A stretch of 39,712 bases of DNA, taken from positions 1-39,712 of the forward strand of contig JAHJKP010000005.1 of the NCBI GenBank assembly GCA_018821985.1, given 5' to 3'. The notes below the pieces were generated by a model. It did no database searches. It was not told the origin of the DNA and saw only the letters and a list, made by a program, of their open reading frames with translations. Source of the stretch: Pseudomonadota bacterium (GTDB lineage Bacteria; Desulfobacterota; Desulfobulbia; Desulfobulbales; Desulfocapsaceae). Shown piece by piece: positions 12,668 to 15,353 of this stretch (position 1 is the first letter of the stretch; every line of letters begins with the position of its first letter). The position numbers were made by a program, and so were the translations under genes.

Positions 12668-13000
12668 TTATGAGAGATTTTTGAGGAAATAGATCACATT
12701 GTCAATGATTTCCTGCCGTTCACTCTCCGGATGTTTAAAGATGCCAAGATAATAGCGCCCCAGTGAGAAAATCAGAAGATCGTTACCTGATTCCCGTTCA
12801 ATACAGAGATGGATATAACGATTCCCACCCATATCCGTGCTAAGGCTATCGCACTGAGTCCCGCCGGTGGAGATGATTGGAGCATAGGATGCCGCATTTT
12901 CCATGTTTTGGCTGATGATCTGTCCATCACCGCGTACAAGGATGTAGTTGGCAACACCATTGATCTGTTCTAGGCGGGAAAAATCTTTGGCAGAGGCCAT
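12668..13000 (-). CDS. Roadblock/LC7-like small protein
   Basis: The 110-residue protein has the alpha/beta layout of Roadblock/LC7 proteins: an N-terminal helix, then I-N-G-V-A-N-Y-I-L-V-R-G-D-G-Q-I-I-S, a helix, then a strand pair around I-H-L-C-I-E-R-E and L-L-I-F-S-L-G-R-Y-Y-L-G-I. Such proteins usually regulate Ras-like small GTPases, as MglB does for MglA. No GTPase is encoded nearby. It starts 4 bases after the end of another protein with a similar N-terminal half, so the two are surely co-transcribed. The assignment is from pattern, without a profile search. Confidence 0.6.
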   Translation of the reverse strand: MASAKDFSRLEQINGVANYILVRGDGQIISQNMENAASYAPIISTGGTQCDSLSTDMGGNRYIHLCIERESGNDLLIFSLGRYYLGIFKHPESERQEIIDNVIYFLKNLS

Positions 13001-13004
13001 AATA

Positions 13005-13688
13005 CTACTCCTGGGGGAAGAGGTCTTTGATATTGTTATTGAAAATTTTTATATCCTCACTGTCATCGATCTCATTGTTGAGGAGAGGAATCAGGTGTTT
13101 CAAGGTATTCAGCGCGGGGGGATATTCTTGACACCATGCGGTCAGGACATCTTGAAAAACAGGTATTGCCGCTGGACCGATACAATTGGCAAGTTCATCC
13201 TGTAAGGCGTTTAAGAATTTGGCCAATGGTGCTCCAGGGGCCATCAGTGACTCGATATCGACGGGGATTACTTCCTTTGTGACGGGTGACTCGGCAGCAG
13301 CTATCTTCTCAACTTGTGGTTCTGGTTGCATGGCCGGGCTATCGTTTTCCTGGGCACTGTTGTTCAAGGCCAGTTGCAGCGCCATTCGAATCATGCCGCT
13401 GGACAGCTCAGGTTTATGCAGAAGAAAAAGCCATTTCTCTTCAGAGAGCAGACGGCCAGAGAGGATTATGTTGTCAAACGTAGCCTGGAGATGAGTGATA
13501 TCATTAAAATGATCAGAGGCCTTTCCTGCAATGCCGGTCATCTTTTTTCCTATTGCCAGTGAATCGAAATTTCCTATTGAATCATCAATAAGTTGGGAAA
13601 GTATTCCTGTCTGAGGGGTAAAGAGAAAGGCGCCATTTATCTCAGGCAGGCTGTTGACAAGGTCTAAAAGAAAGGATTGGTGATTCAT
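13005..13688 (-). CDS. Roadblock-like N-domain protein with helical C-domain
   Basis: The 227-residue protein is new to me as a whole. Residues 1-115 (N-G-A-F-L-F-T-P-Q-T-G-I-L-S-Q, later L-F-L-L-H-K-P) have the strand/helix order of a Roadblock-like module. Residues about 118-150 are a flexible Ala/Glu/Pro linker. Residues about 155-227 form a helical domain (L-N-A-L-Q-D-E-L-A-N-C-I-G-P-A-A-I-P-V) of the sort seen with bacterial sensory or helper proteins. No transmembrane segment or signal peptide is present. It is first in the minus-strand set followed by the Roadblock protein, nnr and the CBS protein. Confidence 0.5.
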   Translation of the reverse strand: MNHQSFLLDLVNSLPEINGAFLFTPQTGILSQLIDDSIGNFDSLAIGKKMTGIAGKASDHFNDITHLQATFDNIILSGRLLSEEKWLFLLHKPELSSGMIRMALQLALNNSAQENDSPAMQPEPQVEKIAAAESPVTKEVIPVDIESLMAPGAPLAKFLNALQDELANCIGPAAIPVFQDVLTAWCQEYPPALNTLKHLIPLLNNEIDDSEDIKIFNNNIKDLFPQE

Positions 13689-13850: not shown

Positions 13851-15353
13851 TTATTGAGGCGTCTTGTCGGATGCCAATGTGCTCTGCTTTTCCAGGATGG
13901 CTTTACAGCTATTACAGGGGGTAAAACCTGCCTGCAGAGCTATTTCCATATTTTTGAATTCAATGGTGCATTGACGACAGGAGTAGGACTCACATCCAGG
14001 GACATGACAGGCCATGCTTTTCACGTTTCCATGGACAGTACCGACAGTCAGGTGGCCAGGGCCAAGGAGCTCTTCCGGAGTCTTGTTATATTGTCGTAGA
14101 TTTAATGTAGATTTTTTTATTAATTTTTTTACCGGCAGGTGGATCCATGCGCGCAATTTTTCCATGAACGGTGGGAGTACTCTGGTAATCAAGGCAGCCC
14201 ATGCATGACTCAGTACTTTGGGTATCAGTGGTCTCTCATTGGCGGTCTGGCGCAGGAGTATCACGGTAAAAACAAAGAAGACGAGATTAGGAAACCACAT
14301 TGCCATCCAGACGGAGTGTGAACTCTCCTCTGCGATATTTTTCCCAATGGTGAACAGCACATAATATAGGATAAATCCTCCCAGCCCAAGAGGGATGCCA
14401 ATTGCGCTTCTGCCGGCTCGAGCCTGGAGTCCGAGGGGAAGACCCAGCAGGCTGAGGATAAAACAGCCCACCGGCAGGACTAGCCGTTTGTGGAAATGCA
14501 CCAGTGCCTCCCGGCCTTCTTTGCTCTCTCGGCCAAATTGTGAGATTGTCTGTTGTAACTGTTCCATGGTCATGGAGCTGATGGCTTGGTGGGTGACATC
14601 GGTGCCGTCAATAATACTGGGAATGTGCAAGGGGATGTTGATCTGGTAGCGGTCAAAGGTGACTGTTTGAGTATAGGTCCCGTCAGGGCGGTTGAGACTG
14701 CCGTTTTCCAGGATGATTGTCACCTGCATCTTCCTGCTGTCGCCAACCATCGAGCCTGATTTCGCCATGGTGATGGAAGGAACAGTCTGGTCCCGCATGT
14801 CGGAAACCCAGACATTCTGCCATTGGCCAGTGGTATTATCGATGGATTGTACATAGACCACTACATCGCCTAAGGCCTCGGTGAAGGCGTTTTCCTTGAT
14901 CCCTTTATCTATTTTTTCTTTGGCCAGTTGAAACAAGAGTTGCTTCATGGCGATCTCACCAGTGGGGATGAGCTTTACCGAGAAGTATCCGGTGATACCG
15001 GCAATGGCCATGGAAACCATGATAACAGGAGGCAGGATGGTGTAAATACTGATTCCGTTGGCCTTGAAGGCCAGAATCTCGGTATCGCTGGAGAGTCTGC
15101 TGAAGGCGATGATCATACCCATCATGGCGGCCATGGGCATGGAGTAGAGGAACATGTTGGGAAAGAGGTAGGAAAAAAGGCGGAGGAAATCGGTAAAGCC
15201 GATATTGAGCTCAAGCACCACATTGAGGAAGGGGATCAGCTTGACCAGAAAGAAAACAGAGTTCATGATCAGAAAACTGGCAAAAAAAGGAGCCAGGATC
15301 TCGGTGGCCAGGTAGCTGTAAAGCAGCAGGGGAAGGCGTGGAAAACGATTCAT
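13851..15353 (-). CDS. lptF: LptF-type LPS export permease with C-terminal Ada-like zinc domain
   Basis: LptF is an inner-membrane half of the LptB2FG transporter that extracts LPS. Residues 1-390 show the family plan: N-terminal helices (L-L-L-Y-S-Y-L-A-T-E-I-L-A-P-F-F), the Y-S-M-P-M-A-A-M-M-G motif, a periplasmic beta domain (about 130-270) and a C-terminal helix bundle. The usual family length is near 360-400 residues; this one runs to 500. The extra tail (about 425-490) has CHVPGC, a Cys pair C459/C462, then AGFTPCNSCK, which matches the layout of Ada-type metal-binding domains (H-x3-C followed by G-x-x-P-C-x-x-C). The frame is uninterrupted. No lptG is in the window. It is divergent from uvrB. 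Confidence 0.85.
   Translation of the reverse strand: MNRFPRLPLLLYSYLATEILAPFFASFLIMNSVFFLVKLIPFLNVVLELNIGFTDFLRLFSYLFPNMFLYSMPMAAMMGMIIAFSRLSSDTEILAFKANGISIYTILPPVIMVSMAIAGITGYFSVKLIPTGEIAMKQLLFQLAKEKIDKGIKENAFTEALGDVVVYVQSIDNTTGQWQNVWVSDMRDQTVPSITMAKSGSMVGDSRKMQVTIILENGSLNRPDGTYTQTVTFDRYQINIPLHIPSIIDGTDVTHQAISSMTMEQLQQTISQFGRESKEGREALVHFHKRLVLPVGCFILSLLGLPLGLQARAGRSAIGIPLGLGGFILYYVLFTIGKNIAEESSHSVWMAMWFPNLVFFVFTVILLRQTANERPLIPKVLSHAWAALITRVLPPFMEKLRAWIHLPVKKLIKKSTLNLRQYNKTPEELLGPGHLTVGTVHGNVKSMACHVPGCESYSCRQCTIEFKNMEIALQAGFTPCNSCKAILEKQSTLASDKTPQ

Follow-up and report, generated by a model that had tools for sequence, protein, structure and literature searches.

An Ada-type metal-binding domain, predicted from sequence, at the C-terminus of the LptF permease in Desulfobulbales

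LptF (YjgP) is part of LptB2FG, the LPS exporter, and has an N-in topology; the solved LptF chains that match the protein described here are 362-375 aa long. The N-terminal domain of Ada (PF02805; 1adn, 1u8b, 1wpk, 1zgw) is a small metal-binding module with four ligands, in which Cys38 acts as the methyl acceptor. A third family that will matter below, the sunset domain (NCBIfam NF051437), sits on variants of ribosomal proteins L4, L17, L20, S2 and ArfC. The literature that we searched, by titles and abstract starts and with few subscription papers or preprints, shows no accessory domain built into LptF, no LptF fusion with Ada or otherwise, and no paper on the sunset protein domain, which agrees with a preliminary description of our locus, made from the letters of the DNA, whose author knew of no such fusion.

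The protein that we describe is encoded in a window of 39,712 nucleotides (the whole stretch of DNA that was analysed) from a genome of the Desulfobulbales. A single open frame of 500 aa at 13851-15353, on the minus strand, begins with an LptF permease core (residues 1-373, 14235..15353, minus strand) that has six hydrophobic stretches and a beta-rich middle part. The core is delimited by Pfam LptF_LptG, which covers residues 14-368 with 257.8 bits (2e-76, cut-off 27.9; profile positions 2-352 of 353), and by the best solved LptF chain in the PDB, which aligns up to residue 366. On the same ORF the NCBIfam LptF equivalog model (TIGR04407) scores 221.2 bits, slightly below its cut-off of 230, and the LptG model 128.7 bits versus a cut-off of 240. 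LptF fits the ORF better than LptG, and the best-matching solved chains are LptF. It is the sole LptF found in the window and in the genome, which is 99.85% complete; a separate LptG is present (G000:C44:126603-127658, 217.5 bits, 373-aa frame), and a third LptF/LptG match is partial and below the cut-off. As an LptF the protein would be expected to assemble with LptB2 and to move LPS. Because the Pfam match ends at 368 and the solved chain at 366, we count about 127 extra residues, from 374 on, by which this LptF exceeds the solved chains. The preliminary description had rightly seen the frame run past the normal end of LptF, although it put the excess at about 110.

The extension is not an isolated feature of this genome. 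Among 97 related genomes, 94 gave a match to the protein and the best LptF was taken from 90, leaving out four with partial, split or weak matches (G026, G031, G034 and G044; the partial match of G026 includes the tail). A tail bearing the cysteine motif is found in 54 of these 90 ORFs, and the other 36 stop shortly after the core; the survey of LptF homologues that had been proposed as a check thus finds the tail kept in related genomes, with its Cys ligands invariant. Since tail-less ORFs end at most 42 residues from position 378 and tailed ones reach at least 91 past it, a clean separation in length, there is no long tail without the motif. Its presence in 54 of 90 ORFs means that the tail is not due to chance, and a frame error or assembly artefact is ruled out by an open frame in many separate genomes. 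By family, the tail occurs in 48 of 54 members of the window's own (f1), in all four of f12, in two of four of f4 and in none of the 28 others. On contigs of named genomes it is present in 73 of the best 80 of 190 relatives, including Desulfocapsa, Desulfopila, Desulfosediminicola flagellatus, Desulfogranum marinum and Desulfobulbus sp. Tol-SR; those without it among the best 80 are L132, L141, L154, L160, L165, L175 and L190, four of them labelled Desulfocapsa. A wider search of the order matched 235 of 257 genomes, and among the matches listed 138 of 235 run through the tail (74/85 in f1, 62/67 in f12, 2/10 in f4 and none of 73 others, with one further f12 match, G520, cut by the contig end); as these matches reach only E 5.2e-35, a tailed LptF of high divergence may have escaped detection. 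LptF does not need the tail, since 6 of 54 members of f1 lack it, as do 11 of the 85 f1 matches that the wider search gave and most other families. A split gene was rejected as the explanation for tail-less members of f1: five of them (G011, G017, G033, G039 and G045) have no match to the tail profile at E<=0.001, and in G046 the profile matches solely a 373-aa Ada-like protein. In a tail-less member of the window's genus (L017/L132) the domain is absent from all three forward frames after the stop, which looks like a real loss.

The tail is made of two parts. AF2 confidence, charge and dN/dS mark out a linker (residues 374-438, 14040..14234, minus strand), with a predicted helix at 379-404 followed by a stretch, 411-434, of pLDDT <50 in the whole-protein AF2 model, and with a net charge of +7 over residues 372-436. 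It leads to the Ada-type domain (residues 439-497, 13863..14039, minus strand), delimited from Pfam, a PDB profile match, AF2 and Foldseek. Its motifs are C449-H450-x3-C454 (CHVPGC), C459/C462 (CRQC) and G476-F-T-P-C480-N-S-C483 (AGFTPCNSCK), all present as the preliminary description had read them. The predicted metal ligands, all on the minus strand, are His450 (14004..14006), Cys454 (13992..13994), Cys480 (13914..13916) and Cys483 (13905..13907), which stand at the places of Ada Cys38, Cys42, Cys69 and Cys72 in the alignment with 1adn; these four places read His, Cys, Cys, Cys in 54/54 tails. An extra cysteine, Cys462 (13968..13970, minus strand), is absent from Ada in the alignment and present in 51 of 54 tails, as is Tyr457, and both are near-invariant. 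Fully invariant are H450, C454, F466, A472, G476, P479, C480 and C483, even in tails just 22% identical to the window's; the pattern used to pick tails itself required H450, C454 and C480/C483, and it rejected no long tail. The cysteine that precedes His450, Cys449, is found in 15 of 54, those of the window's genus. No convincing second copy of the domain exists in the genome, where the only other match to the tail profile has E 0.93.

The kinship of this domain with Ada is borne by profiles and by fold. Pfam Ada_Zn_binding (PF02805) is matched at E<=1 by all 54 aligned tails, the best at 4.5e-7. A Pfam check had been suggested from the outset, and its outcome is divided: the window's own tail, with 14.6-20.0 bits according to the stretch used, stays below the gathering cut-off of 23, whereas among ten relatives scanned singly four exceed it (L052 26.9, L060 30.2, L073 24.3 and L226 25.9 bits), five fall below and L040 has no match at 0.01. 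Searched against the PDB, the profile of the tails finds the N-domain of E. coli Ada (1adn) at 8.5e-5 to 2.1e-4 and aligns to it ligand for ligand. AF2 gives block means of 82-89 over residues 441-490 in the whole protein and a mean pLDDT of 83.1 for the tail alone. With the tail model, Foldseek returns six PDB matches at E<=10, of which ranks 1-4 are the Ada N-domain, with E only 0.28-0.93, TM by query of 0.52-0.58 and probability of 0.72-0.82, and ranks 5-6 have a probability of 0.04; the confident fold matches of the whole-protein model are to LptF/LptG only, not to Ada. The tail is hence predicted to be a folded domain of the Ada metal-binding type, as had been proposed, and its metal would be zinc. 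Kinship with the methyl-phosphotriester domain of Ada could also suggest that it senses alkylation, an idea contained in the preliminary description. This we consider extremely improbable, because the place of the acceptor, Ada Cys38, is taken by His in 54/54 LptF tails and also in 35/35 copies on other proteins (see below). An Ada-like repair activity was discarded for the same replacement, of the nucleophilic Cys38 by His450, in every copy compared.

Where the domain lies can be judged from hydropathy. In the window protein there are six membrane-like stretches, the last ending at 369, and from 378 on the maximum (19-residue mean) is 0.93, to be compared with the value of 1.5 that we used as the mark of a membrane helix. 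Six such stretches, none of them past residue 378, together with the N-in topology of LptF, place the tail most likely on the cytoplasmic side, in agreement with the earlier proposal. From helix 6 to the domain the net charge is positive in 39 of 54 tails (median +3). In four of 54 the hydropathy of a stretch past the core is above 1.5 (L040 2.29, L043 1.55, L051 1.52 and L047 1.51); L040, and also the other three, might have a seventh membrane helix and carry the domain outside.

The distribution of the tail also informs on its history. When the tail label is mapped on a quick tree built from the 90 LptF cores, at least six changes are needed, five of which are imposed by starred branches; shuffled labels need 28.3 on average. 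Such a tree cannot tell gain from loss, and the simplest reading is that f1 and f12 inherited the tail from an ancestor that had gained it, with losses in genera g18 and g2, in part of g9 and in one lineage of the window's genus; that of f4 is perhaps a separate gain. Further tail-less members, of g6, g14 and f12, come from the wider search. A sample of the phylum comprised 395 genomes, of which 37 have the domain at E<=1e-8, ten of them in the order. We read one stretch from each of 20 of the 27 carriers outside the order (the seven unread have frames <=299 aa), and one of the 20 is an LptF. This protein of 496 aa (locus L226, G453:C75, genome G453) matches LptF_LptG with 294.2 bits and also passes the Ada_Zn_binding cut-off. 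Its core falls in a starred set of eight rows from its own family, seven of which are tail-less (two of these, L252 and L255, are probably LptG, as judged by a weak match), and it is 57% identical to L253; other LptF matches in the family end before the domain. Because its core nests among tail-less LptF of its own family, L226 is an independent LptF-Ada fusion in a distant family. Among the 17 genomes of its class no other has a match at E<=1e-12 that extends over both parts, and its core groups with its own family even though the genome is 6% contaminated. The stretch also has a second LptF/LptG-like frame. The domains of L060, L073 and L226 score best against copies that are not on LptF, in keeping with separate origins, and L226 resembles those copies in carrying R at 469 and D at 471.

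We estimated constraint among 15 members of the window's genus, keeping the pairs that gave a usable value. The core has a median dN/dS of 0.103 (105 pairs) and the domain one of 0.148 (104), whereas the linker reaches 0.289 (82). These values are rough because dS is near 1; the domain is more constrained than the linker and lies near the core. This bears on the idea that the fused domain is a passenger, kept merely as a stabilising cap or because it is harmless, an idea to which the repeated loss of the tail and the occurrence of the domain on unrelated proteins lend some weight. A passenger would hardly be expected to show a dN/dS that is half that of the linker, to conserve its invariant residues in tails down to 22% identity, or to have been fused to LptF more than once, and we hold this explanation to be rather unlikely.

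What sets the LptF version apart emerges from its comparison with copies on other proteins of the phylum. The 54 tails were set against 35 such copies, from 40 loci, leaving out copies on Ada-like proteins, short pieces and L226. Many of the other carriers look, from their sequences, like SNase-type nucleases or small exported proteins, and these are the strongest non-LptF matches found in the phylum. Many start, judging by eye and without a count, with a signal-like hydrophobic stretch, and this exported look suggests that the domain family also occurs outside the cytoplasm. One small exported-looking protein (L233) has two tandem Ada-type domains. Over residues 442-484 the mean net charge is -0.3 in LptF copies versus +4.4 in the others (Mann-Whitney 9e-13, a p value that overstates independence because the sequences are related). 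At position 469, 41/54 LptF copies have V, M, I or L and 20/35 others Arg; at 471, 47/54 LptF copies have I or V and 24/35 others E or Q; and PCxxC is preceded by T, E or S in 34/54 LptF copies and by R or K in 26/35 others. Phe occupies position 482 in 27/54 LptF tails, and positions 486-487 are mostly hydrophobic there (the other copies are cut before these two, so that the comparison stops short of them). The LptF form therefore differs from the other copies by less positive charge, which it has lost, and by hydrophobic positions that it has acquired. This weighs on the possibility that the domain binds nucleic acid or anionic lipid, holding nucleic acid or the phosphates of LPS near the membrane. 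Such binding would suit a module whose four best fold matches are the Ada N-domain and many of whose other carriers resemble SNase-type nucleases; the near-neutral charge of the LptF copies, and their T, E or S where other copies have R or K, argue against it, and we regard it as improbable.

The genes around lptF were considered too. For 52 of the 54 tailed LptF genes of the order lptG is not next door, while it is adjacent for 27 of 33 decidable tail-less ones (three are undecidable). A tie between the tail and the separation of lptF from lptG was nonetheless rejected: tail-less members of the tailed clade are separated as well, and L060 and L073 have both a tail and a neighbouring LptG. The separation in the tailed clade is probably a matter of shared ancestry. 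When ten neighbouring genes were scanned with Pfam, one had two CBS domains and two had no match. Directly downstream of lptF lie two small genes, 12668-13000 and 13005-13688, both on the minus strand and without Pfam match at 0.01; the first looks roadblock-like and may be so. A role in defence was discarded, with no PADLOC match at 0.01.

Thiols are more numerous in the tail than a plain structural site needs, with Cys462 in 51/54 and Cys449 in 15/54, and Desulfobulbales live in sulfidic habitats. The domain could accordingly be a metal or thiol sensor, in which the loss of zinc, or the reaction of the Cys cluster with an oxidant or sulfide, would unfold or move it and so speed or slow LptB2FG, tying export to the zinc or redox state of the cytoplasm; the preliminary description had likewise thought of metal or thiol sensing that would gate LPS export. 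Yet Cys462 is present in 28 of 35 other copies and is thus not special to LptF, no obvious redox regulator appears among the ten neighbouring genes scanned with Pfam, and a linker with pLDDT <50 suggests no rigid path for a signal. We see such sensing as a minor possibility. A bolder version would make the LptF of Desulfobulbales a cytoplasmic zinc/thiol switch whose domain releases LptB2FG when zinc is scarce or when its Cys cluster is attacked by sulfide or an oxidant, changing the rate of export. This is doubtful in our opinion; if true, it would represent post-translational control of LPS transport within the exporter itself.

The explanation that we favour, tentatively and with slightly less than even confidence, is that the domain serves LptB2FG as a docking module on its cytoplasmic side, stabilised by zinc. 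We lean toward docking because the predicted ligands are kept and the fold is that of Ada, the Cys that accepts methyl groups is missing, positive charge has disappeared, and new hydrophobic positions are conserved. The distribution of the tail, the constraint on the domain, its repeated fusion and the predicted topology also speak for this explanation. Against it stand the weak E of the fold match, the sub-cut-off Pfam score of the window's tail, the families whose LptF does without the tail, the exported look of many other carriers, a linker that is positive in 39 of 54 tails only, the four tails with a hydrophobic stretch past the core, and L226 with its charged residues at 469 and 471. An otherwise ordinary LptF would be followed, after its sixth membrane helix, by a flexible linker of about 50 residues and then by the small Ada-type domain. 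His450, Cys454, Cys480 and Cys483 would hold the zinc, with Cys462 as a fifth conserved thiol, and the metal would keep the fold together. The hydrophobic face particular to the LptF version would then bind a partner on the inner side of LptB2FG, for which LptB, the coupling regions of LptF/LptG or an enzyme of lipid A or LPS synthesis are candidates, and docking would tether or tune LPS export. A domain kept in most members of two families, and re-fused elsewhere as a new fusion, offers a concrete, deletable handle on whether this process is tuned from the cytoplasm.

Compared with known systems, the window protein shares with the LptF of LptB2FG the core, the six hydrophobic stretches, the beta-rich middle and the presence of one LptF and one LptG in the genome; it departs from the solved chains in carrying a domain of metal-binding type. 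A kinship with the sunset domain is also suggested. NF051437 is matched at E<=0.1 by 51 of 54 tails, over residues 440-479 (the window's own tail scores 18.6-24.1 bits, below the cut-off of 27), and the tail profile finds the tail of Cutibacterium acnes ribosomal protein L4 in the PDB at E 0.0039. Unlike the LptF tail, the matched stretch of that L4 stops short of the PCxxC pair and carries Ser where Cys454 would be, for which reason it looks metal-free. On ribosomal protein variants, the sunset tail may be related to the Ada-type zinc domain but bind no metal. The C-terminal extension of C. acnes uL4 is reported to show no density and to be likely disordered (PMC10085706). The tails of SNase-like (thermonuclease) and small exported-looking proteins share with that of LptF the pattern HxxxC ... 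YxCxxC ... F ... A ... G[FY]xPCxxC, and differ from it in being basic and in having mostly charged residues at 469 and 471, where LptF has mostly hydrophobic ones. The likeness to the N-terminal domain of Ada lies in the fold, in the spacing of the four ligands and in GFxPCxxC. The LptF tail is unlike it in the His at Cys38, in the extra Cys462, in a net charge near zero and in its carrier, by which a membrane transporter is added to the proteins that bear this small Ada-type module.
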